64,000 bases of DNA, from NCBI RefSeq assembly GCF_003024805.1, contig NZ_PUEC01000006.1, forward strand, positions 1-64,000. Direction: 5' to 3'. Below, one piece after another: positions 281 through 19,815 of this stretch. Below the pieces are notes generated by a model. That model saw only the letters and a list, made by a program, of their open reading frames with translations. It ran no database searches and was not told where the DNA came from. A program made the position numbers and the translations under genes. Every line of letters begins with the position of its first letter. The stretch's first letter is position 1. This stretch comes from Duncaniella muris. Its GTDB lineage: Bacteria; Bacteroidota; Bacteroidia; Bacteroidales; Muribaculaceae.

Positions 281-296
281 GGTGCCCAGAACAGGA
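281..296. repeat. Left attachment-site repeat (attL)
   Basis: The 16-base sequence GGTGCCCAGAACAGGA is identical to 13721-13736, which is the 3' end of the intact tRNA-Leu gene read on the minus strand. Identity ends immediately to the right of the repeat, so this is the truncated copy left by integration. Confidence 0.88.
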
Positions 297-444
297 ACAC
301 GAATATTAGATTGTAATGAACTAACATAGAATTTGATTAAATTCTTGATATTATCGTATAATGCTGTATTTAACTATATTGGCGCAATTTGGATGATTTT
401 GAATAATTCGGAAAATCTGTCTTGATTTAGTTAAATCCAATCTT

Positions 445-465
445 GGTTGACACGGCGTTGACACG
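445..465 (+). repeat. Arm-type recombinase-site candidate, left end
   Basis: A 21-base motif contains two GTTGACAC copies spaced 11 bp apart, about one helical turn. The same 21 bases recur with one mismatch at 13646-13666 near the other end. Repeats just inside both element ends are the usual layout of arm-binding sites for tyrosine recombinases. Binding itself is inferred. Confidence 0.6.
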
Positions 466-495
466 AAAGCCATTGTATATGTCAATCGTATTGGC

Positions 496-503
496 TAATT
501 TTG
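496..503 (+). promoter_or_regulatory. -7 promoter element for the integrase gene
   Basis: TAATTTTG matches the Bacteroidetes -7 consensus TAnnTTTG and lies 25 bases before the integrase ATG. It is close to the arm-type repeat at 445-465, so recombinase binding could influence its own promoter. Confidence 0.5.
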
Positions 504-528
504 TGTTGGAAATAATAATCACTCTCCT

Positions 529-1884
529 ATGGCAACACTTACTCGTAATATCACGAAGGGTACCAACCCTATGGGGAAGGCGGAGCTTCTGCTGCGTCTT
601 TCTGTATCGCGTAATCTTGTAGTCCGCCTGAAGACTGGGCTTTGGATGGATCCCTCGCGTTTTGACAAGGGGATATTCTCTTTACCCAAAGACCCGACGG
701 CACGTGCCGAGATTCGCGCGATAGAGGACAGGCTTATCGACATTGAACGGTTCCTTATCAATCTCTGCGAAAAAACACCGTCAGACACGCTGACAAAGGA
801 TTTCGTTGTTGCTCAGTATGATTTGTTTCTGCATCCAAAACCGGAAAAGCAGAAACGGCAACCGCGTAATCCAAATTTCTTCGACATATTTGAGGATTAC
901 ATCGAAAAGAAAAATATTTCGGAATGGCGCATCAAGCATCTGCGAGTCCTGAAACGCGCATTAATGCGATATGAGCTGTATGTCCGCGCAAACGGTCGCG
1001 GCCGCTATAAAATCAAACTTGATGATTTTACAGTCGATGATGTCAACAGTTTCGAGAAGTTCCTGCGCTCAGAGCATGAAATCCACGAGAAATATCCGGA
1101 AATATATAAGGCGGTTCCGGCAGACACACATACAACGAGAAAGAAGCCTAAGCCCCAACCCAAGGGCGATAACACTATCATCGGGCTTTTTGGACTGATG
1201 CGGGCATTCTATCGCTGGTGCCGTGACCAAGAGTTGACAACCAATGACCCGTTTGCAAAATACAACGGCAAGACAACCGAAGTGTATGGCACCCCCTATT
1301 ACATTACTCTTGAAGAACGCGACAGGATTGCAGACTACGACCTTTCTGCGAATCCGTCATTAGAGGCACAACGCGATGTTTTCATCTTTCAGTGCCTCAT
1401 CGGATGCCGAGTATCAGACCTTATGGCAATGACACTGGCGAGTATCATCAACGGAGCCATAGAGTATATGCCGCAAAAGACAAAGGGCGAGCGTCCGCAG
1501 GTTGTAAGAGTGCCACTCAACGCAAGAGCCCAAGCCCTCGTCGCAAAATATGTCGGACGCGATGACCTCAACGGCAAACTGTTCCCTTTTATCAGCTCAC
1601 AGAAATACAATGTAGCTATCAAGAAAATTTTCACTATCTGCGGCGTGACCCGTATGGTGACTGTGCTCAATCCGACCACCGGAGCAGAAGAAAAGCGGCC
1701 GCTGAATGAAATAGCCAGCAGCCATTTGGCGCGACGCACCTTCATCGGCAACCTCTACAAGAAAGTCAAAGACCCTAATCTCGTCGGCTCACTCAGCGGC
1801 CACAAAGAAGGCAGCAAAGCCTTCGCCCGCTACCGAGACATCGACGAAGATATGAAGAAGGAACTTGTCAACCTTCTTGACTGA
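529..1884 (+). CDS. Tyrosine recombinase (integrase)
   Basis: This 451-residue site-specific recombinase is expected to integrate and excise the element at tRNA-Leu. Residues about 100-250 form an N-terminal SAM-like core-binding domain, and the catalytic domain follows. The catalytic set is visible: R294 in GCRVSD, H399-x-x-R402 in SHLARR, H425 in SGHKEGS and the nucleophile Y435 in ARYRDID. The domain order and length are typical of Bacteroidales mobile-element integrases. The gene sits 230 bp inside the left border and points into the element, as is usual. The ATG at 529 follows a good -7 element. No frameshift or missing catalytic residue is seen, so the gene looks functional. Confidence 0.95.
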   Translation: MATLTRNITKGTNPMGKAELLLRLSVSRNLVVRLKTGLWMDPSRFDKGIFSLPKDPTARAEIRAIEDRLIDIERFLINLCEKTPSDTLTKDFVVAQYDLFLHPKPEKQKRQPRNPNFFDIFEDYIEKKNISEWRIKHLRVLKRALMRYELYVRANGRGRYKIKLDDFTVDDVNSFEKFLRSEHEIHEKYPEIYKAVPADTHTTRKKPKPQPKGDNTIIGLFGLMRAFYRWCRDQELTTNDPFAKYNGKTTEVYGTPYYITLEERDRIADYDLSANPSLEAQRDVFIFQCLIGCRVSDLMAMTLASIINGAIEYMPQKTKGERPQVVRVPLNARAQALVAKYVGRDDLNGKLFPFISSQKYNVAIKKIFTICGVTRMVTVLNPTTGAEEKRPLNEIASSHLARRTFIGNLYKKVKDPNLVGSLSGHKEGSKAFARYRDIDEDMKKELVNLLD

Positions 1885-2063
1885 TTTCTCTTTTCCCCAG
1901 CCCCTATACATAGGTTCAGTTCAGCGGGCATATATAGTGCCCGAACTGAACTCATATCAATAATGTCACTGGTTTAACCGGTAGTTGTAGAAAATATTAT
2001 ACAAAGCCTTATTGATTTCACTGTTTCAGTGATTTGCTGGTTGTTTAATCCAATTAAAATCAC

Positions 2064-2071
2064 TAACTTTG
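2064..2071 (+). promoter_or_regulatory. -7 promoter element for the cargo operon
   Basis: TAACTTTG, a match to TAnnTTTG, lies 18 bases before the ATG of the first cargo gene. It is the only clear promoter seen before four co-directional, overlapping genes (2089-5921), suggesting one transcript for the unknown pair and both methyltransferases. Confidence 0.6.
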
Positions 2072-2088
2072 TAAAAAAATAAACAATC

Positions 2089-2925
2089 ATGAAAACCAGT
2101 TGGTATATACTCAATATAAAAGCTCGAACCAATCAGACACCGTCTCATTATGTGGAGTGTCTGAGAAATTTAAAAGCACAAGATCCTTTGGTAACAGTAG
2201 CAAAGGATAAATGTGTCAGCATATGGAGCATTGAAGAAAGTATTGAAAATACAAATGGAATCCCAAGTTGGATGATTATCAAGATTATCTCCTATACGAT
2301 AATTGATCCTACCAAATTTTACAATAGAAGAAGTAAGGAAAATCTTGAATTACAGTGGGACTCAGATGTTGTAGCCAACAAGAAAGAAACTGAACTGTTT
2401 TTTATCCCAGCATGTCATAAGTTGGCGACAAGAAAGAACAGTAAAATCACACTTAATTATGTTAAGAAATACTTAGAAGAAGCTCTAAATCAAGTAGAAT
2501 CAGAATCATTTGATGTTAATATAGTTGTATCCCAGGATCTTATAAGAAAAATTAAGGATGCTTTTGCAGTAGTTAGAATACGAGCGGATATAAGTTTTTC
2601 AAATCCGGGACATAGTGATGGATTTGCGCGAGTGTTAGATGAGAAGTTGCGCGCGGCAAATCCAGACAAAGCTTTAGTAGAGCTAATTGGTTCCAAGACA
2701 ACACCATTAGGTAATCAGTCTGATGGTTTAGTTTCAGCTATAACAGACATAGCGGAACAAGATGGAACGATAGAGGCAACAATCCAATCGGAAGAAGGAG
2801 GAATATATGAAAAAGTTTCAAGTTCCACTTATCCACGAATTGTATCTGTGATCCAGAGCAAAGCAAGCGAGGCCTGGGGAGCAGTATACAATGCCATTAG
2901 AGAAATATTCCCAACCGATGATTAA
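2089..2925 (+). CDS. Unrecognised cytosolic protein, weakly DUF4747-like
   Basis: This 278-residue protein has no signal peptide or membrane segment. It opens with MKTSWYILNIKA. A middle part (about residues 90-130) reads FFIPACHKLATRK followed by a helix with YVKKYLEEAL, and a further stretch VVRIRADISFSNPG lies near residue 165. This arrangement recalls DUF4747-type proteins, but that link is from memory and weak. It is the first gene of an overlapping run with a four-helix membrane protein and two DNA methyltransferases, and lies in an AT-rich block. The context suggests a role in phage or plasmid defence; no function can be read from the sequence itself. Confidence 0.6.
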   Translation: MKTSWYILNIKARTNQTPSHYVECLRNLKAQDPLVTVAKDKCVSIWSIEESIENTNGIPSWMIIKIISYTIIDPTKFYNRRSKENLELQWDSDVVANKKETELFFIPACHKLATRKNSKITLNYVKKYLEEALNQVESESFDVNIVVSQDLIRKIKDAFAVVRIRADISFSNPGHSDGFARVLDEKLRAANPDKALVELIGSKTTPLGNQSDGLVSAITDIAEQDGTIEATIQSEEGGIYEKVSSSTYPRIVSVIQSKASEAWGAVYNAIREIFPTDD

Positions 2926-3427
2926 ATTTGGCTTAAAAGGTATCTTCAAAGATTATTCGGTCACAGAGTTAGGGAAAGACCTAATCTTGCCTTTGGCAGT
3001 GACATGTGTACTTACTCCGATAATGTTGATGAGTAATATGTCTCCATACAGATGCCTTATGGAAATTCTGAATTTTGGAATTATTGTTGTCCCTATATTG
3101 ATAACATTAATCCTCACGGCTTATGTATTACTGTTATCTATGTTTGGATCTACTTTAAAGGACTTTTGCACATCTGAATCAGGAATCGATTTGCATAAGA
3201 AGTTGAATTCCGGTTTTGCTGCAAATCTCACAATCTCAATTTTGAGTTTAGTAGGAGTCTTTATCGGCACATTTATTGCAAAAATGGAATTTAGTTCGGA
3301 TTATGCCAATATCATTAATCAAATTGCGTATGCCATATATGTACTTTTAGTTTCATACCCAATTTTTTCTTTATTTGGGATTACTATAGACCTTTTTAAT
3401 GTAGGACAAGTAACGAGAATTAAATGA
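2891..3427 (+). CDS. Four-helix membrane protein of unknown function
   Basis: The protein is up to 178 residues long with four strongly hydrophobic segments, at about residues 36-53, 60-85, 113-132 and 143-165. There is no signal peptidase site and no recognised domain. Its start overlaps the previous gene. An alternative ATG at 2918 would shorten the overlap to 8 bases and remove nine residues. Its stop overlaps the next ATG by 4 bases, so it is translationally linked on both sides. A small multi-helix membrane protein beside a cytosolic partner is a common arrangement for membrane-disrupting effectors in abortive-infection systems. That role is inference only. Confidence 0.7.
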   Translation: MPLEKYSQPMIKFGLKGIFKDYSVTELGKDLILPLAVTCVLTPIMLMSNMSPYRCLMEILNFGIIVVPILITLILTAYVLLLSMFGSTLKDFCTSESGIDLHKKLNSGFAANLTISILSLVGVFIGTFIAKMEFSSDYANIINQIAYAIYVLLVSYPIFSLFGITIDLFNVGQVTRIK

Positions 3428-4533
3428 GCCTTATCAACATCATATATTTTCATGCTTCGCAGCAAATGACAGAGTTGGCGGATAATTCCGTAGACTTGGT
3501 TGTTACGTCCCCTCCTTATCCAATGATAGAAATGTGGGATGAGGTTTTGGGGCAGCAGAATCCTGAGATTACAAAAGCTATTGGCGCAAATAGTCCTAAA
3601 TTGGCGTTCGAGTTGATGCACTCTGAACTCGACAAGGTTTGGGCCGAGTGCTGGAGAGTAATGAAAGAGGGTGCATTTATGTGCATTAATATTGGCGATG
3701 CAACTCGAACTGTTAATGGCGAATTCTCTCTATATAATAATAACACACGGATTATATCCGCTTGTGAGAAATTAGGCTTTAACAATCTGCCGAATATCCT
3801 GTGGAGAAAGGCTACTAATGCGCCCAATAAATTCATGGGTAGCGGAATGTTGCCATGCGGTGCATATGTTACCTTAGAGCATGAGTGGATATTGATTTTC
3901 AGAAAGGGTTCTAAGCGCGCTTTCAAAACCGCAACGGAAAAGAAGGAGCGTAGAGAAAGTTCTTTCTTTTGGGAGGAGCGGAATATATGGTTTTCAGATA
4001 TTTGGGATTTAAAGGGAGTCAAACAGAAGATAGACAAGTCTCCTACACGAGAAAGAAATGCATCATTCCCTTTGGAACTTCCATTCCGTCTGATTAATAT
4101 GTTTTCTCAGAGAGGAGATGTTGTCCTTGATCCATTTGTTGGATTGGGAACAACTACTTTAGCTGCGATTCTCTGCGAGCGCAATAGTGTGGGATATGAA
4201 ATTGACTCCTTGCTGTGTGACATTATAGAGAATAACATTAAAAACTTTGATATAGATGAAGCGAATCGGTCTATAAGCGACCGATTTCATAGACATGTAA
4301 ATTTCATAGAAGAGCGTGAATTAGCTAAGAAGGAGGTCAAACACTATAATGATAGGTTGGGATGCAAAGTCATGACAGGTCAAGAGTCTGAATTGATATT
4401 CCACTTCATAAAGAATATTTCCAAGGTTCCTACAGCTGATAATCAACTTAGCTATGAAACATTTTACTATTCAGACAGATCGCTAATAAAAATTCCTATT
4501 AGGGAGTCATGCGTCTTATTTTCTGAAGAATGA
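3424..4533 (+). CDS. DNA methyltransferase, N4-cytosine type (first of two)
   Basis: This 369-residue AdoMet-dependent DNA methyltransferase has the catalytic motif TSPPY at residues 28-32 and the AdoMet-binding motif DPFVGLGTT at 236-244. Catalytic motif first and AdoMet motif second is the beta-class order. A serine before PPY is typical of N4-cytosine enzymes, although some such enzymes methylate adenine. The region between the motifs would carry the target recognition domain. The C-terminal 110 residues after the fold are unassigned. It overlaps its neighbours by 4 bases on each side, and the next gene is a second methyltransferase of the same class. It presumably protects the host from the endonuclease encoded at 5916-6512. 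Confidence 0.9.
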   Translation: MSLINIIYFHASQQMTELADNSVDLVVTSPPYPMIEMWDEVLGQQNPEITKAIGANSPKLAFELMHSELDKVWAECWRVMKEGAFMCINIGDATRTVNGEFSLYNNNTRIISACEKLGFNNLPNILWRKATNAPNKFMGSGMLPCGAYVTLEHEWILIFRKGSKRAFKTATEKKERRESSFFWEERNIWFSDIWDLKGVKQKIDKSPTRERNASFPLELPFRLINMFSQRGDVVLDPFVGLGTTTLAAILCERNSVGYEIDSLLCDIIENNIKNFDIDEANRSISDRFHRHVNFIEERELAKKEVKHYNDRLGCKVMTGQESELIFHFIKNISKVPTADNQLSYETFYYSDRSLIKIPIRESCVLFSEE

Positions 4534-5921
4534 GCCATCTGAATCACGTCTTGATAACTGGTGATTGTCGGCAGATGAGTTATACAGATAACGAATCTGT
4601 TGATCTTATTGTTACATCCCCTCCGTATTGGCAGTTAAAGGATTATGGCAATCCCAATCAGATTGGTTTTAATCAGAGCTATGAAGAATACATTGACAGT
4701 TTGAATTTGGTGTGGATGGAATGCTTTCGTGTGCTTCGATCCGGATGTCGGTTATGCATCAACATAGGAGACCAATTCGCAAGGGCTGCATACTATGGAC
4801 GCTATAAAGTAGTGCCTATACATTCAGAAATAATTCGATTCTGTGAAACTATAGGTTTTGATTACATGGGATCTATTATTTGGCAAAAGCCGACAACAAT
4901 GCATACGTCTGGAGGCGGAAAAGTTATGGGAAGCTATCCATATCCTCGCGGAGGAATAGTAAAAGTCGATTATGAGTATATTCTACTATTCAAAAAGCCC
5001 GGAAACTATAAAACGCCACCTACTGATATAAAAGATTCTTCAAAGCTCAGCGATGAGGAATGGAATACATTCTTTTCTTCTCATTGGAACTTCTTCGGAG
5101 ATCGACAGAATAAACATATTGCTGTATTTCCGGAGGAGTTACCTCATAGACTAATCAGAATGTTCTCATTTTATGGGGATATGGTTCTTGACCCCTTTAT
5201 GGGTAGTGGAACCACTGCTTTAGCTGCGATTCGTAATGGTAGAAATGTAGTAGGCTATGAGATTAATCACGACTTTCTTAAGTTCTATGAGGATAAGGTT
5301 CTTAGTCAGTTTTCAAAGAGTCAAGTTCACTTCCGGCATATTGTTCAGAAGGATTTAGTAACAGAAGAAGACCTTGTGAGACATCTACCATACCGGTATG
5401 TAGATGTATGTGGCCTCAAGCGAGATGAGATGGCTTATAAAAACTGTTATGGCAGTATCATGTCCGTTGGACCGGATAACTATCATGATTTAAATTCGGA
5501 CTCTTTAACAGACCTGTCAATTTTAGATGGAAGGAATAATGGATCCCCGACGGTCTTAGTGAATCATGTAGATAAACGAGCTATTCTCCAAATGATTGAG
5601 ACAGGAATAACCTATGTGAGAATCGGAGATGTCAGAGGATCATTAACCGTTACCCCGGGTTTTTCGCGTCTTAAATATGTATTGTTACATTACGGTGGAA
5701 CGGATCCTCTGCTTTTCAAACTGGCTAAAACCGGCTCATTCCAGATTTGGACAAAGGAAACTCTTGAAGAATATGGATTTTCGCCAAAATCCTCACCTTA
5801 TTATGCTGTATTGAGATTCAAAAGTTTAAATCCTATAAAATTCAAAAAAGTCCCCTCCCTAATGAAAGGGAAAGGAACTTATGTCGCTAAGATTATATCA
5901 GTTGACGAAATTGAATTATGA
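4530..5921 (+). CDS. DNA methyltransferase, N4-cytosine type (second of two)
   Basis: This 463-residue beta-class DNA methyltransferase has TSPPYW at residues 29-34 and DPFMGSGTT at 221-229. About 180 residues follow the catalytic fold (roughly 280-463), which is long for the class and has no domain that I recognise. It begins 4 bases before the end of the first methyltransferase. It ends 6 bases into the convergent endonuclease gene, so the two halves of the restriction-modification system meet tail to tail. Two tandem methyltransferases often serve an asymmetric target, each modifying one strand. The first enzyme shares the fold but lacks this long tail. Confidence 0.9.
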   Translation: MSHLNHVLITGDCRQMSYTDNESVDLIVTSPPYWQLKDYGNPNQIGFNQSYEEYIDSLNLVWMECFRVLRSGCRLCINIGDQFARAAYYGRYKVVPIHSEIIRFCETIGFDYMGSIIWQKPTTMHTSGGGKVMGSYPYPRGGIVKVDYEYILLFKKPGNYKTPPTDIKDSSKLSDEEWNTFFSSHWNFFGDRQNKHIAVFPEELPHRLIRMFSFYGDMVLDPFMGSGTTALAAIRNGRNVVGYEINHDFLKFYEDKVLSQFSKSQVHFRHIVQKDLVTEEDLVRHLPYRYVDVCGLKRDEMAYKNCYGSIMSVGPDNYHDLNSDSLTDLSILDGRNNGSPTVLVNHVDKRAILQMIETGITYVRIGDVRGSLTVTPGFSRLKYVLLHYGGTDPLLFKLAKTGSFQIWTKETLEEYGFSPKSSPYYAVLRFKSLNPIKFKKVPSLMKGKGTYVAKIISVDEIEL

Positions 5922-6512
5922 CTCAAATATTGCCGAGTCAAACTCAATTGTTATGCCATCCTTTTTCTTATCGTAGTAGATAATTGGCGTCTCGATGTTT
6001 TCTGCAAGTCTTGCTTCCAACTTATAGGTGGATGATTTGATCTGAACTGGAATTTCACCAATAAATCCGTCTATTCCCTGAGCTTCTTCTTCAACATTTG
6101 CAAGGCGCCAAGTTTTATTATATTTATCTCCAAGGAATGCTAATATCGCGCTCTGGAATTTAAGGCCACAGTAAGTCTTGTTATAAACCAAATCCTTAAC
6201 CCAAGCCTCAATCATGGGTCGATCGATTTGCGCGAAGGCTTCGCTCATGAGCTGATACATGGCAAAAATCTTGTCTGTAGCTTTAGTCACGGCATCAGGT
6301 TGTCGCTCCGAATACCATGCAATCCATTCTTCTAATGTTTTGCCGTCAAATTCCTGAATTAGTTCAGACATCTGACCCACTACTGCTGGTCTCGTCCCTT
6401 GTGCATTGCTATTTAGCAGATTAATAATCTGAGTAGCGTACTTGGGGAAAGGATACTTGCTGGCGTTTGAGAGTTGTTCTATCTCGCCATTGGAAATTTT
6501 AAATTTCTTCAT
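5916..6512 (-). CDS. Type II restriction endonuclease, MjaI-like
   Basis: This 198-residue protein resembles the MjaI restriction endonuclease family, whose founding member cuts CTAG. The family-like stretch is AQGTRPAVVGQMSEL near residues 37-51, followed by GKTLEEWIAWY. A PD-(D/E)XK-type core is visible as GIDGFIGEIPVQIKSS, with D148, E153, Q157 and K159; Q replaces the acidic residue directly before x-K, as in some known endonucleases. Its start overlaps the controller-like gene by 14 bases and its stop overlaps the stop of the second methyltransferase. It should cleave unmodified incoming DNA. The family call is from recalled sequence patterns; the actual target is unknown. Confidence 0.75.
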   Translation of the reverse strand: MKKFKISNGEIEQLSNASKYPFPKYATQIINLLNSNAQGTRPAVVGQMSELIQEFDGKTLEEWIAWYSERQPDAVTKATDKIFAMYQLMSEAFAQIDRPMIEAWVKDLVYNKTYCGLKFQSAILAFLGDKYNKTWRLANVEEEAQGIDGFIGEIPVQIKSSTYKLEARLAENIETPIIYYDKKKDGITIEFDSAIFES

Positions 6513-6768
6513 GCTCTTTCTGTTCTTCCTCTTTTAGATATTCATCAAATTCGGTTACGAATTCCGGGAAAGAAATTCCAAGAGCGAGACATATTTCACG
6601 AAGTTCAATTACATCCAATCTGCGTTCATGAGTTTCAATTTTGCTTACAATGCCTTGACCTACACCTAAGCGAGATGCAAGCTGTTCTTGTGTTATGCCT
6701 TTGTTGATTCTTTTCAACCTAAGGAGTTGCAACAAGCTTTGATATGCCTTATTATGAATGGATTTCAT
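6499..6768 (-). CDS. XRE-family HTH controller protein of the R-M system
   Basis: This 89-residue protein consists almost entirely of one XRE/Cro-type helix-turn-helix (about residues 13-72: ITQEQLASRLGVGQGIVSKIE), ending in an acidic tail. Size, fold and position directly upstream of and overlapping the endonuclease gene match C proteins of type II restriction-modification systems. Such proteins delay endonuclease expression until methylation is complete. Repeated AATATTC/GAATATT half-sites lie just upstream at 6792-6827, beside its promoter. The role as C protein is inferred from context; the DNA-binding fold is clear. Confidence 0.85.
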   Translation of the reverse strand: MKSIHNKAYQSLLQLLRLKRINKGITQEQLASRLGVGQGIVSKIETHERRLDVIELREICLALGISFPEFVTEFDEYLKEEEQKEHEEI

Positions 6769-6784
6769 TCCTAAAATTTGGAGT

Positions 6785-6827
6785 CAAAATTAATATTCCA
6801 TTATAGAATATACCAAATTAGAATATT
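6785..6827 (-). promoter_or_regulatory. Controller promoter with C-box-like half-sites
   Basis: On the minus strand a TAATTTTG -7 element (6785-6792) lies 16 bases before the controller ATG. It abuts three related half-sites on the plus strand: AATATTC (6792-6798), GAATATA (6806-6812) and GAATATT (6821-6827). The first and third are exact inverted copies. This arrangement fits autoregulation by a dimeric C protein and implies a very short leader. Confidence 0.55.
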
Positions 6828-6876
6828 TTCTGCAACCTATAAAATGACACGAATAGTCAGATAAATGTAGAAGTAA

Positions 6877-6913
6877 AATGCCATCGGCAACTGCGTGAGC
6901 TGCCGATGGCATT
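6877..6913 (-). terminator. Hairpin terminator after the mobilization genes
   Basis: Perfect 13-bp inverted repeat (6877-6889 with 6901-6913, 11-base loop) just past the relaxase stop. A run of weak pairs follows on the minus strand. It separates the mobilization operon from the restriction genes. Confidence 0.65.
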
Positions 6914-6922
6914 GAATTGGGA

Positions 6923-8125
6923 TTAATGTCCCATGTGGAAGCCTCCGTTGAGATGCTTGCCTCGGCGTTTGGCTCGCCATGCATCGAGGGCTTGCTTAGG
7001 AGTAAGCTCTGGATGTCTTGCTTTGAACTCGGGGAATGTTTCGGTATCGCTTCCGGATACTGAACAGCATCCATCTTCGGGAGCGGACGGTTGCTGAGTA
7101 TGGTTAAGAGATGGGGCAAAGGAAGAAGTTGAAGTCTGCTTAGGCTCGTCTGGATTTGATGAAAATACTTTGGGGACTTTGACTTCCGGTACGAATTTCA
7201 AATAGACGGTAGAGTATTCTCCCTTACATCCATCGACACGGATTGCTTTACCGGCAACGTAGTCATTAATCTGCTGTCCCGAAAATTTCACTCCTCGGAA
7301 ATTGGTTATCGGGACAATAGAGCCGTCAGCATACATCCATTTTGAGTCGGGATGCAATGGGCGATTCTCTGAAAGATGCTTTCGAATATTACTGTAACTG
7401 AAACGCCGGTCAATCTTCGATGCAGAAAACCGTTTCCCTTTTCGGGTGTACCACAGGCCTTGCACCTCATTGGTGCCACGCCTGTATTTGTACTCTATAC
7501 CGACACCTGACGCTTTGAGTTTAGTCTTGAATTTGTCAAAATCGCAGATGCTACGATCTTCCCATGCGTCATTTACTGCATTGAAAATCTCGTATCTGAT
7601 TTTCTCGACACCACGAAGATTATCCACATTAGTATGCTGCTTACCTTCGGAAATATGCAGTCCATACTCCTCAGTCAAGGAACGACAAGCGTCTTTATTG
7701 CGACTATAGTCATTACTGTCGGAGATAGTCTCCCCGAAATTATTGATTCGGCTATACACCAAGTGGCAGTGCGGATAATCCTTGTCGAAATGCCTGACCA
7801 ATATATAAGGAGTGTCTTTTATGTCCATTCTCTCCATATATTTTCCAGCGATTTCAACCATCATTTCCTCTGTCACCTTGCCCTTATCCAAGGCGTGAAA
7901 GTTGAGAGAAATGTGTCCGACCGGGTCTTTGACATTCGGATTCATAGATATGTTATCCTGTAAAGAGGCGGTGATTTCCGCTCGCCCACCTGACAGAAAT
8001 ACATCCTTAGAGTCGATGATTTTCCATTCATCACAGGGCGAACCATCCGGTTTGTCCTTCTTCTTTCGGGTGACATAATCAATGCAACCTCCGGCACTTC
8101 CGCCGTTGCTTATCTTGCCCATCAT
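6923..8125 (-). CDS. Relaxase (MobB-type mobilization nuclease)
   Basis: This 400-residue relaxase/mobilization nuclease (Relaxase, PF03432-type) nicks the transfer origin and pilots the strand into a recipient. The metal-binding histidine cluster is visible as RHFDKDYPHCHL, with H112, H119 and H121. Y17 in IDYVTRKKK is the likely catalytic tyrosine. The C-terminal third is low in conserved features and ends in a basic tail. Its start overlaps the MobC-like gene by 4 bases. With no secretion genes nearby, it would use the conjugation machinery of another element. Confidence 0.9.
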   Translation of the reverse strand: MMGKISNGGSAGGCIDYVTRKKKDKPDGSPCDEWKIIDSKDVFLSGGRAEITASLQDNISMNPNVKDPVGHISLNFHALDKGKVTEEMMVEIAGKYMERMDIKDTPYILVRHFDKDYPHCHLVYSRINNFGETISDSNDYSRNKDACRSLTEEYGLHISEGKQHTNVDNLRGVEKIRYEIFNAVNDAWEDRSICDFDKFKTKLKASGVGIEYKYRRGTNEVQGLWYTRKGKRFSASKIDRRFSYSNIRKHLSENRPLHPDSKWMYADGSIVPITNFRGVKFSGQQINDYVAGKAIRVDGCKGEYSTVYLKFVPEVKVPKVFSSNPDEPKQTSTSSFAPSLNHTQQPSAPEDGCCSVSGSDTETFPEFKARHPELTPKQALDAWRAKRRGKHLNGGFHMGH

Positions 8126-8517
8126 ATGCTGTCGGGAGTATTACGATAGGTTTTGATAAGCGACAAAATAAAGTCCCGGCATTCGTATATGTCCCGGAAA
8201 AGTTGGACAAGGTTCTCATTTGTTGAACCTCTGTTTAGAATGGATGAACAAAATTTGGCGATGCGATTGAGATTCTCGGCTATGCCCTGAAGATCTCTTA
8301 TCGCCTTTACGTCTTTGGGTTTTAGACGCTCCGTCACCGTACAATGGATTGATGCCTGACGGATATATTCCGAACGGTTCAATCCAGCAACAATTGCCTT
8401 GTTCATCATTATCTCATATTTGTCGAGGCCGTATTTCACCGGAACAACGATTGACTTTCGTTCCTCGGCGGGTAGTTTGGGTCGACCTTTGGAAGGTCGG
8501 GAATTGTATCTTCTCAT
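8122..8517 (-). CDS. MobC-like relaxosome accessory protein
   Basis: This 131-residue basic protein begins with a proline-rich basic tail (RPSKGRPKLPAEERKS). A ribbon-helix-helix-like strand, IVVPVKYGLDKYEIM, follows, then the RSEYIRQASI helix. The later stretch GIAENLNRIAKFC is characteristic of MobC/mobilization accessory proteins. It should bind oriT and help the relaxase open the strands. It is translationally coupled to the relaxase by a 4-base overlap. The inverted repeats at 8551-8654 lie directly upstream, the expected place for its DNA target. Confidence 0.88.
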   Translation of the reverse strand: MRRYNSRPSKGRPKLPAEERKSIVVPVKYGLDKYEIMMNKAIVAGLNRSEYIRQASIHCTVTERLKPKDVKAIRDLQGIAENLNRIAKFCSSILNRGSTNENLVQLFRDIYECRDFILSLIKTYRNTPDSI

Positions 8518-8550
8518 AATAGCAGTGTGTTTAGAAGTCTGTGACCATCG

Positions 8551-8654
8551 GGAGCGGTTGGGCGAGTCGTTTTCGGATTACTTGTAATACGAAAACATAA
8601 ACTCGCTCCAACCCCAACTGAACACTGACGATAGTTTCGAGCTGCGCGAAACTA
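8551..8654. other. Candidate origin of transfer (oriT)
   Basis: This 190-bp gap before the mobilization genes holds a long imperfect inverted repeat: GGTTGGGCGAGT with CGTTTTCG (8556-8575) against CGAAAAC and ACTCGCTCCAACC (8590-8613). A perfect 8-bp hairpin follows (8632-8639 with 8647-8654). Inverted repeats directly upstream of a MobC/relaxase pair are the usual oriT layout. No nick site can be assigned from sequence alone. Confidence 0.6.
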
Positions 8655-8708
8655 AGCCCGCTTTTAGTGGTCGTGATTAATCATTTTTAGACAGTTGCAA
8701 TCAAACAA

Positions 8709-9119
8709 TCAGAGTTTGCGCCAGATTTCGTGGTCGGCGGCGTAGTCGTCCATGTGGCGGAGAAGCACCGAGTCGATAAAGCCGGAGATGGTGGTGTCGA
8801 TGCCTCCGAGTCGACGAACCATCAACGCGATGCGGTTGTATAGTTCCTTGCTGATGCTTGTCTGCTTTCGCTGGTCAAGTATCTTCGGGGCGAGGTAGGC
8901 TGACTTGTATTCCTCGTACTCCATCTTGCGCTGTTTTATGCCGATGCGCTGTAGTTTCGGCTCGTCTGCTGACAGTAGCGCAACTGTTGTGTTGTTCTCG
9001 GCGGTTGCGTTATCCGCATTGTTGACAGTGGTGTCGCTGTTGGCTTCAACACTATTGTTGAAGATGTTGTCAGTCATTTCGGACGACTGAGTTTCTGTAA
9101 AATTCTTTTTATTACTCAT
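8709..9119 (-). CDS. DUF3408-type mobile-element protein
   Basis: This 136-residue protein has a low-complexity Asn/Thr/Ala-rich N-terminal half (residues 1-55). A charged C-terminal domain follows (KQTSISKELYNRIALMVRRLGG then ISGFIDSVLLRHMDDY), resembling DUF3408 proteins found in Bacteroides mobilizable and conjugative elements. The C-terminal part looks like a ribbon-helix-helix DNA-binding unit. It overlaps the toprim gene by 4 bases, placing it in the replication/mobilization operon. Its exact role is not established; DNA binding near oriT or partitioning is possible. Confidence 0.75.
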   Translation of the reverse strand: MSNKKNFTETQSSEMTDNIFNNSVEANSDTTVNNADNATAENNTTVALLSADEPKLQRIGIKQRKMEYEEYKSAYLAPKILDQRKQTSISKELYNRIALMVRRLGGIDTTISGFIDSVLLRHMDDYAADHEIWRKL

Positions 9120-9988
9120 AATTGTAAATTTTGATTGTTTGTAAAACTTGTTGTCAGATACTCATTCAGGTCATTGCAACCTGAGTAGAGTGTGGAGCGG
9201 TCAATCACCTTTATTTCGAATCGCTCTGTCAACTGACCCAATGCCGTTTTACCTGCAACATCGTTGTCAAGATAGCAATGGATAGCGTTGTAATCCCGCA
9301 GATAGGGGATTGCCTTGTTGACATTGCTGACCGAGTTAAGAATGATTGCGTCCGCTTCGATGATTCCGAGTGTCAGTGCCGACAGATAATCAATGAACCC
9401 TTCAAACACTGCGCACTCCGTTGACGGACCATCGCGTATGCGCCATATCGAGATGTCTTTCGGCGATATGCAACCTTTGAAATATCGGTTGCGTATCTCA
9501 TGGCCGCCTGATCCGTTGGCAAAGGCAACGGCATAGTATCGTTTGCCTCGGCAACTGTAATGAATCTGTTGACAGTGTGCCTTTGAAATCTCCGGTGGAA
9601 TGCCGCGCTCTTGGAGGTATGCGACAAGTGCGTGGCTCTCCAACGGCACTGTTCGGATGTCCTCAAAACTCGGAGCAGTGTGTCGCGTAACGGATGTGGC
9701 AGCGACTGTCTGCACCGATGGCACAGGGCAACTGTCGGCAATGCATCGCAGTAGATGACGCATATCGGTTGACTGATACATCTCGGCTGCAAGGTCGATG
9801 ATGTTGCCTCCTTTACCGATACCGAAGTCATACCAGCAGTTGAGCGTGGCCTCCACCTTGAACGATGGCGTATGCTCCTGTCTCAGCGGCGACTTATACC
9901 AAAGTTTGTCTCCACACCGTCTTACCGGCTCATGTCCGAGTCGGGACATGAAGGTGGCTAAAGGAATAGATTCTATCTCTTTGAACAT
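9116..9988 (-). CDS. Toprim primase-like protein with degenerate zinc finger
   Basis: This 290-residue DnaG-like protein of mobile elements starts at the ATG of MFKEIESIPL; the upstream 18 residues in frame do not look conserved. An N-terminal CHC2-like region is recognisable (SPLRQEHTPSFKVE then WYDFGIGKGGNIIDL). Most of the cysteine and histidine zinc ligands of true DnaG are replaced, so it probably does not bind zinc. A toprim domain follows, with an acidic residue in VFEGFIDYLSAL and YLDNDVAG. It likely makes primers or assists strand synthesis after transfer, together with the RepA-like ATPase encoded just upstream. Confidence 0.85.
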   Translation of the reverse strand: MFKEIESIPLATFMSRLGHEPVRRCGDKLWYKSPLRQEHTPSFKVEATLNCWYDFGIGKGGNIIDLAAEMYQSTDMRHLLRCIADSCPVPSVQTVAATSVTRHTAPSFEDIRTVPLESHALVAYLQERGIPPEISKAHCQQIHYSCRGKRYYAVAFANGSGGHEIRNRYFKGCISPKDISIWRIRDGPSTECAVFEGFIDYLSALTLGIIEADAIILNSVSNVNKAIPYLRDYNAIHCYLDNDVAGKTALGQLTERFEIKVIDRSTLYSGCNDLNEYLTTSFTNNQNLQL

Positions 9989-10061
9989 GGTGGTAAAATG
10001 TTTAAGGGTGGCAGTTCGAGTTCGGCTCACATATATACACACCGTACCGAACTAAACTCGA

Positions 10062-11096
10062 TTAGTAGTAGAAGTCGCGGTTAAACTGATAGGCTCCCTT
10101 CTCCTTGACAATCATCCGCTTGTTCATCAGGAAGGTCTTCAGTTTGGTGACCTTGCCGTCGCCATACGGATAGCCGCAAGATGCGTATGCCGCCTTGATT
10201 TTATCCTCGCAGTTCTGACAGCCTTTGATGGCTCCGTCGGCGAAGGCGAGTTCAAGAGCTTCGCGGTGCCGGTCGGGTGACAGCTCGTTGTAAGAGAACA
10301 CCTGCTGTTTGGCGGATTTACCGAAGGTGTGGTTCTCTACAATCTCCGGCAGACCGTAGTCATTGATCCTAAAAGCGAATGGCGCGAAGTCCATTGACCG
10401 GATACATGATGCCGACACCTCGGTCACTTCATCATCTGTCGTGCTTTTGGAAACCTGCAATACGGTCTCGGCTTTGTTGTTTAGCTCCGTGCCGACATGA
10501 CCGCGCACATTGTCATCGCTCTTGTTGAGATGCAGGACAGTGTGGATGTGTATCTGATACTTGTCCGTCCACTCCATCAGCTTGTTGATGAGCCTTGATG
10601 ATTCGGTAGCATTGTTGATGTCGAACATCAGGTCGCGTACACCATCTATGATTACCAGACCGACATTGGGTGTTGTGGCAATCGCCCGGTCGATAATCTC
10701 CAGCCTTATATCGGGCACTTGTGCCCTGAGCTGGGCAAAGATAAGATTGTCGGGATGACGGTCGAGCGGCAGACCGGCGAGTTGCAATGCCCGGCGAATC
10801 ACCTTCTGACAATGATAGGGACTCTGTTCGGTGTCGAAGTAGAGGACAGTCCGCTTGTTGTCGGGAAATTCGGCTACATACCGCAACACCTCGCCGTTCA
10901 TCAGCGCAGCCGCAACGATAGCACTTACATTGAAAGTCTTCTTGCTCTTTGCTTTCCCGGTCGATGCCGAGAAGTTCCCGAGTGTGCCGATTACGGAGCC
11001 GTTGCAAAAGAGAACCTCCGGTGCCACGGCAATCTCGTCCGTCACTCTGATTTGCGAGGCCTGCCACAGAGCATCCAAATCCTTGGCATCCATCAT
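10062..11096 (-). CDS. RepA-like RecA-fold ATPase/helicase
   Basis: This 344-residue AAA/RecA-fold ATPase resembles RepA-type hexameric helicases carried by Bacteroidales mobilizable elements. The P-loop is unusual: GKAKSKKT (about residues 47-54) instead of GxxxxGKT. Walker B reads LVIIDGVRDLMFD, and a downstream RGHVGTELNNKAE motif is typical of the family. The ATG at 11096 is chosen because it gives a 4-base overlap with the HTH gene, matching the other junctions in this operon; an in-frame ATG at 11123 would add nine residues. It probably unwinds element DNA for replication with the toprim protein. Confidence 0.82.
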   Translation of the reverse strand: MMDAKDLDALWQASQIRVTDEIAVAPEVLFCNGSVIGTLGNFSASTGKAKSKKTFNVSAIVAAALMNGEVLRYVAEFPDNKRTVLYFDTEQSPYHCQKVIRRALQLAGLPLDRHPDNLIFAQLRAQVPDIRLEIIDRAIATTPNVGLVIIDGVRDLMFDINNATESSRLINKLMEWTDKYQIHIHTVLHLNKSDDNVRGHVGTELNNKAETVLQVSKSTTDDEVTEVSASCIRSMDFAPFAFRINDYGLPEIVENHTFGKSAKQQVFSYNELSPDRHREALELAFADGAIKGCQNCEDKIKAAYASCGYPYGDGKVTKLKTFLMNKRMIVKEKGAYQFNRDFYY

Positions 11097-11404
11097 CGTT
11101 TGCCGCGCTGAATGATGAGACATTCCACATCTGCCTGACGGTAATAGACCTTGCGGCCGATTTTTACAGGCTCGATGTATTTCTTCCTCTCCCAGTTCCA
11201 GAGCGTGGTGGGACAGATGTTGAATTTCTCCAGCACCTCTGCTTTGGGCAGAAGTTTTTCCTGCGACTGTTTCACCATCGGCGAGAACAGTGCCTCCTTC
11301 GCCTCGCTGATAAAATGGTCGGCAAACTCCACAAGGTCTTCGATTTTTATGTTGAGGGTAAGACCGGTAACCCCACTCTTGACGAGTTCAATAATGTTAT
11401 TCAT
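11093..11404 (-). CDS. Excisionase-like helix-turn-helix protein
   Basis: This 103-residue protein has a C-terminal MerR/excisionase-type winged helix (about residues 52-100). It reads LPKAEVLEKFNICPTTLWNWE followed by the wing IGRKVYYRQADVE. The N-terminal half is a helical stretch without a recognised domain. Proteins of this type in Bacteroidales elements act as recombination directionality factors or regulators of the mobilization operon. It is the first gene of the operon running left to the relaxase, so it may also control that operon. The large non-coding region directly upstream (11405-12715) would contain its promoter and binding sites. Confidence 0.82.
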   Translation of the reverse strand: MNNIIELVKSGVTGLTLNIKIEDLVEFADHFISEAKEALFSPMVKQSQEKLLPKAEVLEKFNICPTTLWNWERKKYIEPVKIGRKVYYRQADVECLIIQRGKR

Positions 11405-12715
11405 ACAAGTTTTTGTTCCGCCGGATGATGGAAGGCATGGAGCGATGGCGGATTTAGGTCATCCCATACCTTTCGTCACGATTGACGTGGATTAGTGGTC
11501 TTTCCGATTTGAAAACAGGCATGGCGATAGCGTTCTCGACTCACTTGGGTCAAGGCAAATGACATGACAATATCAAATACGGAAGTGGGAAGTGGCCATT
11601 AAAACGATGTACATTCCGTGGGCTCTCTGGCTCTCCCAAAGCCTCAAGCATTACTGGGAACAAAATTTACGGCTTCTTCTTTGCCAAAGGAAGAAGGCTG
11701 GCGCTTAACCCTGCGCGGGTCATGAATAGTCGGTCATCTGCCTTCGGTCTCCGGATACCGTCAACATTCTGACCATTGGTTGGTCGCAGAGGTGTCGGAT
11801 TACGAATCCGGTTCTCCCCGCTTTTACTCGACAAACATACCGCCAAGTGAGATTGTTTCGCCTCTCGATACCGGTTTCCCGATATTTCCGAGATTTTGAT
11901 CAACATTGCCCAACATTTTTATTTCGGGCGATTTTCAATGAGAATAATCTCATCAGCGGATTGTCTGCCAGTCTATCATTATAACTATCAAATTTGCATT
12001 TTGTTCACACAAATAATTGATATATAGACGGTTGTCTGCCGTTGTCCGGCTTTTGTCTGATGTTGAGTCAGACCTTGCGACAAGATTAGACCAGATTAAA
12101 CCAGATTATCAGATACGATAGAATCTCCAAACGGTCAAATGTTAAAATTCAAATGTCCGATAATTTTTTTTCGTTGAGACACCCTTTTTGACCATGATAA
12201 CGGGTACCACTCCGTTATCAGCATCCCACCTCAGAATTCCAGCGATAGCGTCTTTGACAACACCACCATCATCAGACTGCACCAAAACAGTATTCAGTGG
12301 CAGTCAGTATCAGGAGTCACGCATCTGATTGACCTGCGTCTGATATTGCAACATCGGCAATATGTTGATAGTTTGCAACAAATCAGACACTTCCCCAACG
12401 TGCCCCAATCTTTCCTCAACATGTCCCAACAAATTTTTCATGTCTGAACCATCGGGTGTAATCGGGTGTTGATTGATTCATCCTGAATTCGGACTCTCAG
12501 TCGGAACAATCGGCTTTAGCAAGACCTCCGTCTCAGCAACCATCCATCAGTCCAACACCTGTTCCGCTTGCATTGCTCACGCAATTTCGCCGAGTAATCA
12601 ACGTGAAACAACTTTAATACAAACTTGAACAACAAAAGCCCCGACCGCCACGTCACATCGACGCAGCAGCCGGGGCATATATCACAGACACATTATGCCA
12701 GATAATCGGAGTTAG
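11405..12715. other. 1.3-kb non-coding region, candidate replication origin
   Basis: No convincing gene is seen; a 79-codon minus-strand frame at 11667-11906 has a protein-like sequence but no clear homology. The region contains three tandem 10-bp repeats (AGATTAGACC, AGATTAAACC, AGATTATCAG at 12083-12112). Before these, GTTGTCTGCC/GTTGTCCGGC-type repeats lie near 12029-12058. A small hairpin around 12345-12365 and C-rich CCCCAA/CCCAAC repeats near 12393-12430 are also present. Short tandem repeats next to RepA-like and toprim genes suggest an origin for the excised circle. That function is inferred. Confidence 0.5.
12083..12112 (+). repeat. Three tandem 10-bp iteron-like repeats
   Basis: AGATTAGACC, AGATTAAACC and AGATTATCAG lie head to tail in an AT-rich setting. 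They are about 680 bp upstream of the excisionase/RepA operon. Iterons of one helical turn commonly bind replication initiators. Confidence 0.5.
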
Positions 12716-13516
12716 TTATTGTTGTTTTCCATTCCTAACCTTACGTTGCAAAGCCATTAGAAATGAATCGTAGCTTGTTTTTCGATGTAGTTTAACATAC
12801 GTGGAATAACCTTCATTGAGCAATCGCGTGTATTGGGTTGCTTTATATTCATTATATAATGGCATTCCTGTCTTTGGATGAATCAGGTTCCCGAAATCTT
12901 CAAATGCGTGTATCTTACAGGGAATCTTTTCTTTGTGAATCAAGAAAGAAATAAACTGTTCGAGATCATCGATACTTGTAATATGAGAGCTATCATCAGT
13001 ATATTTATTTTCTTTATGTAAGGTATCAGTAACAGGCAGTTTTCCCCTCCACTTCCAATTTATAATCTCTCTGCCGCTTAAATCTGTAGTGCATAGAGGT
13101 TTCATATAGTATGTACTAGATTTGGAAAAATATATTGTCACATCCTTAATCCAGCCACAACTTTTAACATCATTCCACACAATTGATATTTTAGAAGCCA
13201 CGGATACATCATCCAAGCCGGCTATTCTCTTTTTGAAGTCGACCCAAATGCCTATCATAAGAAAATCACATGAACCCTTATCAACTGTCTTATAGTTGGG
13301 ATCGAAATACTTGTTATTATGATAGTGTTCTATATCTACAACATTATCATAACCAAATCCCTTTTGTAAAGAGCTTCTTAATGGGAGATAAGATTTCTCT
13401 TCTTTCAGCAGTGTCTCTATAATTTTGATAGCTCTATCGAATACCAAGTCATCAAATATTTGCTCATAAAATCTTGACTGCTCTTCTGTCGGGTTGATTG
13501 ATGATACTTTAGGCAT
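12716..13516 (-). CDS. Unrecognised cargo protein at the right end
   Basis: This 266-residue, mainly soluble protein has no signal peptide. It has many aromatic and charged residues and mixed alpha/beta character. Stretches such as GSCDFLMIGIWVDFKKRIAG (about 83-102) and IHPKTGMPLYNEYKATQYTRLLNEGYSTY (late part) look well formed, but I recognise no family. It is AT-rich like the restriction cassette and unlike the mobilization genes. It is the last gene before the right arm repeat and attachment site, a usual place for variable cargo. The start at 13516 is the only plausible ATG at the beginning of the conserved-looking part. A defence or anti-defence role is possible but unsupported. Confidence 0.65.
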   Translation of the reverse strand: MPKVSSINPTEEQSRFYEQIFDDLVFDRAIKIIETLLKEEKSYLPLRSSLQKGFGYDNVVDIEHYHNNKYFDPNYKTVDKGSCDFLMIGIWVDFKKRIAGLDDVSVASKISIVWNDVKSCGWIKDVTIYFSKSSTYYMKPLCTTDLSGREIINWKWRGKLPVTDTLHKENKYTDDSSHITSIDDLEQFISFLIHKEKIPCKIHAFEDFGNLIHPKTGMPLYNEYKATQYTRLLNEGYSTYVKLHRKTSYDSFLMALQRKVRNGKQQ

Positions 13517-13645
13517 ATCTTGAAGGAATCCTGAAATGGAGTGAAAATGGAGTGTACTAATAAAAGTTAAAGAATTTAATTTCGGTTTATTTAATATGCG
13601 TCATGACGGTTGATTTCGGTTTAAATCGGGGGTTGCGCGGAGGTC

Positions 13646-13666
13646 GGTTGACACCGCGTTGACACG
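13646..13666 (+). repeat. Arm-type recombinase-site candidate, right end
   Basis: A 21-base copy of the motif at 445-465 with one mismatch, again with two GTTGACAC units 11 bp apart and in the same orientation. It ends 54 bases before the right attachment repeat. Confidence 0.6.
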
Positions 13667-13680
13667 GAGTGAAACTGAAA

Positions 13681-13713
13681 ATCGCAAGTGATTGAGAAAT
13701 AATCACTTGCGAT
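13681..13713 (-). terminator. Element-borne terminator for tRNA-Leu
   Basis: Perfect 13-bp inverted repeat (13681-13693 with 13701-13713, 7-base loop) right after the tRNA 3' end on the minus strand, followed by TTTC. It lies inside the element, so integration replaces the tRNA gene's original terminator. Confidence 0.65.
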
Positions 13714-13720
13714 TTCTTGG

Positions 13721-13736
13721 GGTGCCCAGAACAGGA
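13721..13736. repeat. Right attachment-site repeat (attR)
   Basis: Same 16 bases as 281-296. Here they form the 3' end of the intact tRNA-Leu gene, so the tRNA stays functional after integration. Confidence 0.88.
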
Positions 13737-13803
13737 CTCGAACCTGCACGCCTCGCAGCACTCGCACCTGAAACGAGCGCGTCTACCATTCCGCCACCTG
13801 GGC
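13721..13803 (-). tRNA. tRNA-Leu (anticodon CAG)
   Basis: The 7-bp acceptor stem GCCCAGG pairs with TCTGGGC (one G-U), followed by A and an encoded CC. The anticodon stem CTCGT/GCGAG encloses the loop TTCAGGT, giving anticodon CAG, which reads CUG codons. A long variable arm typical of leucine tRNAs and a T arm with the loop TTCGAGT are present. It is the integration target of the element to its left, and its last 16 bases are duplicated at 281-296. Confidence 0.95.
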
Positions 13804-14395
13804 TTTTCGGAGGACAAAGGTAAGCATCTTTTTTCATTCCTCCAAATTTTTTCGGCTTTTCAATATGTTTTTTTCTTACTTTTTTCTTGTTACTTTGTTT
13901 TTTACCGCTTATTAACAGTATCTATTCTCTTGTTATGCAACAACTTATACAGACATCTTTTACTATATTCATCCGCCATTATTCCTGCCGACTGCTTTTC
14001 CCGGAACAATGCAAGGTGATTAATCACTAACAATCAACCTATTTCACACACCCAACAGTCCTGACTGACTCGATTCAACCTCTTTTCAAGACTGATCTTC
14101 ATGTTTCGTTCTCTATTTTTATCTCTTCCTTGCTCTGATTTTTTCACTACTCCAATACTCTATCTATGGCGATTCTCTCGCTGCGCGATTTTGTTTTTAC
14201 ACCTTAATTATATATTGGGAGCCAAGCATTGTTGACAATTGTTTTATGGTAGCAATGGCGACCTTTAAGGCCTTTAATTCTTTTTGTGTTTCTCTTGTCG
14301 GTGTTTTTTTGTATTTTTGGCAGCATTTTCCCGATAATCATAAGTTTATCACCAGTCACCGCACTGCAGTCATTTTTCATTCCCGTCAATTAACG
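13804..14395. other. AT-rich intergenic region
   Basis: About 590 bases between the tRNA gene and the PKD lipoprotein. It must hold the tRNA promoter near 13804-13850 (minus strand) and the lipoprotein promoter (plus strand), but no clear TAnnTTTG match is seen. Short frames here have no protein-like features. Confidence 0.4.
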
Positions 14396-16090: not shown

Positions 16091-16392
16091 AAAAATTTCG
16101 CTCCGCCCGCATTATCGCACCAAAACGCGGCCCTGACGGCATTACCTTTGCATCATCATCACCAAAATCACCCGCACCCCCGCTCCCCTAACCCTCTCAA
16201 CCGTCACTCCCGCAATGAAAACCCTCACCTCCAGCCATCGCCACCCGCGCCCCACAGTTTCCCCGCAAGCCCTACGCCCCCTACAGTCCATAGCCGAATC
16301 AGCGTATGTGACATGATTTTTTATGCAATTACAAAAATTCTGACTAACTTTGCATTTTAAATCGAACAGAAACTCACAATATAGCCAGAACA
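16091..16392. other. Leader/intergenic region before glnS
   Basis: About 300 bases with two -7-like elements: TACCTTTG near 16143-16150 and TAACTTTG at 16345-16352. The second is close to glnS and is the likely main promoter. Between them is a C- and CA-rich stretch without clear coding signals. Confidence 0.45.
16345..16352 (+). promoter_or_regulatory. -7 promoter element for glnS
   Basis: TAACTTTG matches TAnnTTTG and lies about 40 bases before the glnS ATG. Confidence 0.6.
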
Positions 16393-18093: not shown

Positions 18094-18114
18094 TCTATTG
18101 ACAACCACAATCCG

Positions 18115-18154
18115 GGAGCGTGTCTAACCTCTTTTTCGGGGTCAAACACGCTCC
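18115..18154 (+). terminator. Hairpin between glnS and the TPR gene
   Basis: Perfect 9-bp inverted repeat (18115-18123 with 18146-18154) with a 22-base loop. It has no following T run, so it may be a weak terminator or processing site. It occupies the place of a GTG start that would otherwise extend the next gene. Confidence 0.4.
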
Positions 18155-18176
18155 TGACATAACCACCCCTGACCGA

Positions 18177-19643: not shown

Positions 19644-19815
19644 ACCACCGGACTGAGCACCCCGAAAAAGCCACACCTCAACCGGCCTCGCCCAAAGAGA
19701 GAATTAGAGGTCGTTTAAAGACAACCGCTTAGAAGCTGTTAAAAAACAATCGCTAAAGCCGGCCCTGCTATAAAGCAGACGGACGGCAAAGTTTTGCGAT
19801 TTGGGATTTTTTTGT

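Follow-up and report, generated by a model that had tools for sequence, protein, structure and literature searches.

The window analysed here, positions 1-64,000 of contig NZ_PUEC01000006.1 of Duncaniella muris (GCF_003024805.1; 64,000 nt in all), contains a six-gene island at 2089-6768. In this island, genes for a DUF4747 protein and a four-transmembrane (four-TM) protein head the operon of two DNA methyltransferases, M1 and M2, that belong to a restriction-modification (R-M) system. By analogy with published systems, we consider it probable that the island is stacked defence cargo, with the pair acting in the manner of CarolAnn, Sbash and RexAB abortive infection and probably being made together with the methyltransferases. 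Functional coupling of the pair to the R-M system is putative.

An earlier sequence-only reading of this DNA had described six genes with overlapping junctions. All six open reading frames (ORFs) are present where it placed them: 2089-2925, 2891-3427, 3424-4533 and 4530-5921 on the plus strand, and 5916-6512 and 6499-6768 on the minus strand. Successive junctions overlap by 35 (or 8), 4, 4, 6 and 14 bases, the 6-base overlap being the one at which the minus-strand endonuclease and regulator genes converge tail to tail on the plus-strand operon. For the second gene, 2918 (ATGATTAA, 8-base overlap) is a more probable start than 2891, because a relative in a Bacteroides metagenome-assembled genome (locus L006) uses the corresponding codon, which makes the overlap 8 bases in both loci.

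The product of the first gene (2089-2925, plus strand; 278 amino acids) had been taken for an unrecognised cytosolic protein. A hydropathy scan finds no hydrophobic segment, consistent with a soluble protein, but the protein is not unrecognised: it matches Pfam DUF4747 (PF15931) at 2.3e-13 and 50.6 bits (gathering cut-off 27) over positions 1-251 of the 257-position profile, and PHROG 10040 (phrog_10040) at 5.7e-12. We propose that it is a sensor or activator. The product of the second gene (2918-3427, plus strand; 169 amino acids, or 178 from 2891) had been called a four-helix membrane protein, and it does have four hydrophobic peaks in the hydropathy scan. Scans of Pfam, PADLOC and PHROG-type libraries gave no useful family-level match for it; its hydrophobic peaks and its homology to the partners of other DUF4747 proteins identify it as the proposed effector.

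The two genes appear to be a module. A search of 395 genomes of the phylum with the DUF4747 model gave five matches at E 0.001, four of them over the cut-off and one of these in the window's genome. The only match among 393 genomes of the order, and likewise among 375 of the class, was the window's own genome, and 244 genomes of another class gave three matches, all found before; the phylum, order and class sets overlap. When the window's DUF4747 protein was compared with 118 close relatives, the single match was again its own genome. L006 came from genome contigs, another locus (L067, the same contig as L092 and L093 and counted once) from viral contigs, and others from plasmids of Hymenobacter (L012), Niveispirillum and Acinetobacter (one, one and two, respectively). 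A candidate in genome G145 (L011/L016) was excluded from the count, having a match at E 8e-4, under the cut-off, and four internal stops. There are thus ten intact loci in Bacteroidota and Pseudomonadota, all ten exceeding the DUF4747 cut-off.

In every one of these ten loci, the next gene downstream, which is on the same strand, encodes a multi-TM protein. With starts as chosen, the two genes overlap by 4-14 bases in eight loci; in those from Acinetobacter they are 1 or 12 bases apart. One crude hydropathy scan gave four peaks for eight of the ten partner proteins and three for the other two (L014 and L096), while a second scan, made for some of the loci, gave 3 to 5. Profile alignment with hhalign joins the membrane proteins of the window and L006 to those of five other loci (E 3.7e-9, 161 columns), and these seven non-proteobacterial proteins to the three proteobacterial ones (E 2.2e-9, 159 columns). 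The membrane partners thus form, on profile evidence, one homologous family. Since the partner follows in ten of ten loci and the partners are homologous, the sequences indicate that DUF4747 and its membrane partner form a two-gene unit that is conserved across Bacteroidota and Pseudomonadota. Other searches added no locus. The DUF4747 proteins of the window, Hymenobacter, L067 and A. lwoffii had no tblastn match in a phage collection. A tblastn search of plasmids gave no match to the window's membrane protein, and for the Hymenobacter DUF4747 protein only itself. Scans of viral contigs with three DUF4747 alignments all found one identical contig, and those with the A. lwoffii DUF4747 protein or the window's membrane protein had no matches.

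Comparison with L006 suggests that the fusion to the methyltransferase genes has been maintained. Protein identity between the two loci is 85% for DUF4747, 90% for the membrane protein, 79% for M1, 68% for M2 and 85% for the endonuclease. The proportion of synonymous differences (pS) is 0.80 for the DUF4747 gene and 0.61 for the membrane protein gene, against proportions of nonsynonymous differences (pN) of 0.08 and 0.06; across the genes, pS is 0.61-0.82, near or at saturation. In this one pair of loci, the values point to strong purifying selection on both genes of the pair, and to a fused order that has outlived the divergence. L006 repeats the four-gene order with overlaps of 8, 4 and 4 bases. 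Because order and overlaps recur despite synonymous change at or near saturation, the fused four-gene arrangement is, as far as sequence can tell, not due to chance.

What might the pair do? DUF4747 plus a four-TM protein is the layout under which the CarolAnn, Sbash and Butters pairs, together with lambda RexAB, have been described in the published accounts accessible to us. In our comparison, CarolAnn 44/43, Sbash 30/31, Butters 30/31 and lambda rexA/rexB all have the gene order of the window pair, and four TM peaks. Sbash gp30/31 are reported to be necessary and sufficient to exclude one phage, with loss of membrane potential as the proposed mode, and CarolAnn gp44/43 to be relatives of the Sbash pair with the same topology. 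Butters gp30/31 are reported to give defence, gp30 being the main antagonist. Lambda RexA and three actinophage relatives are described as binding DNA without sequence preference, and over-production of RexA from a RexAB-type pair of P. putida as causing membrane damage. In the CarolAnn and Sbash pairs, as in the window pair, the first gene encodes a soluble protein and is overlapped by a second whose product has four TM peaks. They differ in that they lie in prophages, whereas the window pair leads a methyltransferase operon borne by a mobilizable element, and in having no significant sequence kinship with it. Lambda RexA/RexB share the two-gene order, the four-TM partner and a soluble first protein of similar length (279 amino acids, against 278 in the window), but belong to separate Pfam families and have no profile match to the window pair.

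As these published systems share the layout, we propose sensing, activation and membrane damage for the window pair. The soluble DUF4747 protein would respond to an infecting phage, perhaps sensed through DNA, and would switch on its four-TM partner. The partner would then break the membrane barrier, such that cell growth stops and the phage cannot finish. Restriction would come first, and the membrane pair would act on phages that escape cutting; a dedicated signal from the R-M system to the pair need not be assumed. The pair leads the methyltransferase operon, which suggests co-transcription and hence that the pair is probably made together with M1 and M2, with the endonuclease and the helix-turn-helix (HTH) regulator made from the opposite strand. 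The second defence layer of sensor and membrane effector envisaged in the sequence-only reading is consistent with a layout like that of the Sbash, CarolAnn and Butters excluders; membership of that layer in the R-M system is not borne out by the wider set of loci discussed below, and none of our observations speaks to the trigger by methylation or damage that was suggested there.

Several observations weigh against this proposal. None of the profile comparisons made with 7-sequence, 10-sequence and proteobacterial partner profiles was significant against the tested systems. With hhalign, the E-value was 0.26 against RexA, and 0.14 and 0.21 against RexB. The best match, to the CarolAnn/Sbash soluble protein, reached E 0.016 over 72 columns with a probability of 2.8%; for the CarolAnn/Sbash membrane protein the E-values were 0.84 and 0.73, with probabilities of 0.05% and 0.06%. 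By this method the partners of the DUF4747 proteins do align with one another. Pfam finds no DUF4747 domain in the CarolAnn, Sbash and Butters proteins (the Butters proteins being compared by Pfam and hydropathy only), and lambda RexA and RexB fall in families of their own, PF15969 and PF15968, neither of which matched the window proteins in a Pfam scan. The published tie is itself weak: the accounts accessible to us connect DUF4747 to CarolAnn/Sbash by a weak HHpred match, and the paper on Butters gives the DUF4747 match of its protein an E-value of 140. Furthermore, that paper describes the role of the Butters membrane partner, gp31, as unclear. The window's DUF4747 protein has no match to any PADLOC model, and the sole PADLOC match of the membrane protein is at E 0.055. 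AlphaFold2 models built from three-sequence alignments (window, L006 and L067) had predicted local distance difference test (pLDDT) scores of 32.6 for the DUF4747 protein and 51.3 for the membrane protein, and are too poor to compare, for instance with the two-domain, RdgC-like fold of RexA. Sequence searches of the PDB with DUF4747 profiles gave nothing, then two matches at chance level. We considered filing the pair as RexAB and rejected this: there is no PF15969 or PF15968 match and no significant hhalign match to RexA or RexB. Hence, we say that the pair would work like CarolAnn, Sbash and RexAB, without classing it as RexAB.

Is the pair an R-M component? In three of the ten loci (the window, L006 and the Hymenobacter plasmid) it has R-M genes next to it, which makes two of seven lineages when near relatives are counted once. 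The window and L006 are one lineage, both with an MjaI-type R-M system and both with the fused layout. The Hymenobacter plasmid has a ResIII-type restriction gene followed by a PF01555 methyltransferase gene and, after 18 bases, the pair and then a DUF2075 gene; over 1823-11049 of that locus, the pair has a type III-like R-M operon on one side and DUF2075 genes on the other, all on the same strand. Conversely, RE_MjaI occurs in 63 of the 395 genomes, at 66 places. We compared 20 RE_MjaI regions with their flanks (21 of the 66 places; contig ends shortened some flanks), and none matched the window's DUF4747 protein at E 1e-3, a search that distant members would escape. With the DUF4747 model, only G250 of the 20 source genomes matches, on a different contig from its RE_MjaI gene. 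Because R-M genes adjoin the pair in three of ten loci, and none of 20 MjaI regions carries it, we conclude from these sequences that the pair is a stand-alone module and not part of the R-M system, yet one that lies beside R-M genes more than once. The earlier suggestion that the pair belongs to R-M is thus not upheld, but the second, independent case in the Hymenobacter operon keeps a recurring link plausible.

The other loci were read as ORFs within a few kilobases of the pair, with family libraries run on some ORFs only. In three genomes of one genus (L013 in G250, L014 in G227 and L015 in G364) the pair follows genes for a patatin-like lipase and an HU-domain protein, as assigned by Pfam in one of the three; lipase, HU-domain protein and pair may be a defence unit of three or four genes. 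Toxin-antitoxin genes lie beside the pair on the two Acinetobacter plasmids, and metabolic genes and a ribbon-helix-helix-like gene, read as ORFs, in Niveispirillum. On the viral contig L067 (4746-6728), DUF5131 and GMT-wHTH genes stand next to the pair, possibly as another defence cassette. The sequence-only reading had held that homologues found mostly away from R-M genes, among housekeeping neighbours, would speak against a joint function. The loci are indeed mostly away from R-M genes, but their neighbours are mostly not housekeeping genes.

These counts bear most directly on the possibility that two independent defence modules simply lie side by side on one mobile element, their overlap bringing no benefit. 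We regard this as quite possible, at somewhat under an even chance. It fits the seven of ten loci in which the pair has no adjoining R-M genes, the 20 of 20 MjaI-type regions without the pair and the separate contigs in G250; moreover, the fused layout is known from two near relatives only, and a double R-M cassette in another genome (L047) has no pair. It accounts less well for the overlaps kept at each junction between the window and L006 despite saturated synonymous change, or for the second, independent case inside the Hymenobacter R-M operon. Published neighbourhoods also speak against it. A 2026 paper (PMC13373217), in the parts accessible to us, reports a "DUF4747/CarolAnn" immune operon in 17 of 443 capKS loci and places 88 of 443 capKS directly downstream of an R-M system, such that R-M systems and immune operons recur around capKS. 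Its statement that R-M and DUF4747/CarolAnn operons can flank capKS is the closest to our observation that we found in print. The window likewise has R-M genes and a DUF4747/CarolAnn-type operon in one locus, but its pair overlaps M1 by 4 bases with neither capK nor capS between, capKS having been looked for only at this junction, and is first in the methyltransferase operon. The direct fusion of pair and R-M without capKS therefore amounts to a variation on an already known type of neighbourhood; the joining of the two defences is unusual.

A closer connection would be that R-M proteins or methylation silence the pair, and that a block of restriction by a phage releases it, in the manner of PrrC. 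The pair sits in the operon of the methyltransferases and not in that of the endonuclease, and PrrC with its linked type I R-M system is a published precedent (PMC2610378). However, as the pair lacks adjoining R-M genes in most loci, a linked R-M system is not generally needed for silence, and general dependence on one is excluded; we consider such a guard decidedly unlikely. It is also rather improbable that the pair has become hard-wired to the methylation arm, firing without capKS when restriction is blocked or modification disturbed. Such an arrangement would be a single mobile unit in which cutting comes first and cell arrest second, and would have arisen at least twice, once in the MjaI-type island and once in the Hymenobacter type III-like operon.

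We also considered that mobile elements use the pair for their maintenance or as a toxin module, and not against phages. Its presence beside toxin-antitoxin genes on two small Acinetobacter plasmids, and on a mobile element in the window, is consistent with this explanation. Against it, published pairs of the same layout exclude phages. Furthermore, defence genes too are common on such elements. We regard a pure maintenance or toxin role as rather unlikely. Stacked defence, with the pair acting on phages that escape restriction, is the reading that we prefer.

The R-M genes of the island agree largely with what had been described. M1 (3424-4533, plus strand; PF01555 3.1e-42; PADLOC MTase_II) and M2 (4530-5921, plus strand; PF01555 8.3e-44) are beta-class DNA methyltransferases, as their SPPY motifs lie near the N-terminus (residues 29-32 and 30-33, respectively) with the S-adenosylmethionine (SAM)-binding motif further on. 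SPPY usually marks N4-cytosine methyltransferases. The two proteins are 36% identical over 312 columns. The endonuclease (5916-6512, minus strand) matches RE_MjaI (PF09568) at 1.2e-57, and both its identity as MjaI-like and its convergence on the operon agree with the sequence-only reading. The C protein of that reading can be called only a candidate: the regulator (6499-6768, minus strand), whose gene precedes that of the endonuclease with a 14-base overlap, is an HTH_3 protein (PF01381 5.2e-12) for which the PADLOC model Control_protein (1.8e-6) is third-best, and HTH_VI scores better.

With an RE_MjaI endonuclease and PF01555 methyltransferases, the system resembles MjaI-type type II R-M systems, but differs in having two methyltransferases with one endonuclease. 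Among 21 MjaI-type loci (L006 and the 20 compared regions), 17 have one methyltransferase type (seven M1, ten M2), two have both and two were not typed. The two loci with both types, L006 and L047 (G347), also carry two tandem endonuclease genes, at 4397-5601 and 6078-7368, respectively. The window keeps the endonuclease nearer the regulator, with no second endonuclease or remnant of one, and M2 overlaps the gene of the endonuclease that is kept. Most simply, these arrangements would mean that two MjaI-type systems were joined and one endonuclease was lost from the window, in which case one methyltransferase may be without its endonuclease. L047, whose double cassette has no DUF4747 pair, comes from a genome of the same order as that of the window. 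In a tree of 25 endonuclease rows, partner type (M1 or M2) clusters, and the branches that would decide the cognate methyltransferase of the window's endonuclease are unsupported.

The four plus-strand genes had been placed behind one promoter. This is plausible, since a TAACTTTG box at 2064-2071 (plus strand), which we take to be a -7 box of the Bacteroidetes type and hence a putative promoter, ends 17 bases before the first ATG. Support for it is limited, however: the 8-mer is near chance in frequency (33 in the window, 26 expected), further -7 boxes occur at 2923 and 3139, and before the DUF4747 gene the -7 box alone was matched, not the full promoter pattern. In L006, another gene ends 8 bases upstream of the DUF4747 gene. 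For this reason the promoter arrangement of the pair is, on sequence comparison, not conserved, and the L006 pair may be driven differently. The full pattern, TTTG-N19-21-TAnnTTTG, has four matches in the window (0.5 expected). The sole one in or next to the island is TTTG-N21-TAATTTTG at 6785-6817 (minus strand), 16 bases before the regulator gene. Within this promoter match lies the palindrome ATATTC-N7-GAATAT (6793-6811), a putative operator and candidate site of self-control by the HTH protein. We infer that the arm with the pair and methyltransferases and the arm with the endonuclease are under separate control. A sigma-70 scan was disregarded, having found fewer sites (11) than in shuffled sequences (17).

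The gene content and ends of the surrounding DNA indicate that the whole island is cargo of an integrative mobilizable element of 13.4 kb (281-13736). A 16-bp direct repeat, GGTGCCCAGAACAGGA, is found at 281-296 and at 13721-13736, the latter copy being the 3' end of tRNA-Leu(CAG). The element encodes a tyrosine integrase (529-1884, plus strand; PF13102 9.5e-9, and PF00589 3.4e-5, which is under its cut-off), a relaxase (6923-8125, minus strand; PF03432 1.2e-28) and a NikA-like mobilization protein (8122-8517, minus strand; PF21983 2.8e-12). Integrase, relaxase and an att direct repeat at a tRNA gene are together characteristic of integrative mobilizable elements. Other element genes encode a DUF3408 protein, a Toprim/CHC2 primase-like protein and an AAA_25 protein, and a 266-amino-acid ORF at 12716-13516 (minus strand) has no Pfam match at E 0.01. 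The G+C content of the island is 38%, against 55% at 13800-30000 to its right. Presumably the element is akin in kind to the NBU-type elements of Bacteroides, with which it shares a tyrosine integrase, a relaxase and a tRNA-Leu target. Six other contigs of this genome carry a 99-100% match to the window's first 127-130 bases, three of them at the contig start; this repeat, at 1-127, may break the assembly.

In the parts of the open-licence literature accessible to us, we found no DUF4747 pair described as lying within the operon of a methyltransferase. DUF4747 pairs have received little study, and the defence work that names DUF4747 in that literature concerns actinophages. The window offers a small, complete and testable unit from Bacteroidota in which a DUF4747 pair is joined gene-to-gene to an R-M system. 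If the two layers act together, the island would be a compact means of coordinating restriction with abortive infection without capKS regulators. If they do not, it would be a clear case of defence systems stacked on a mobilizable element.

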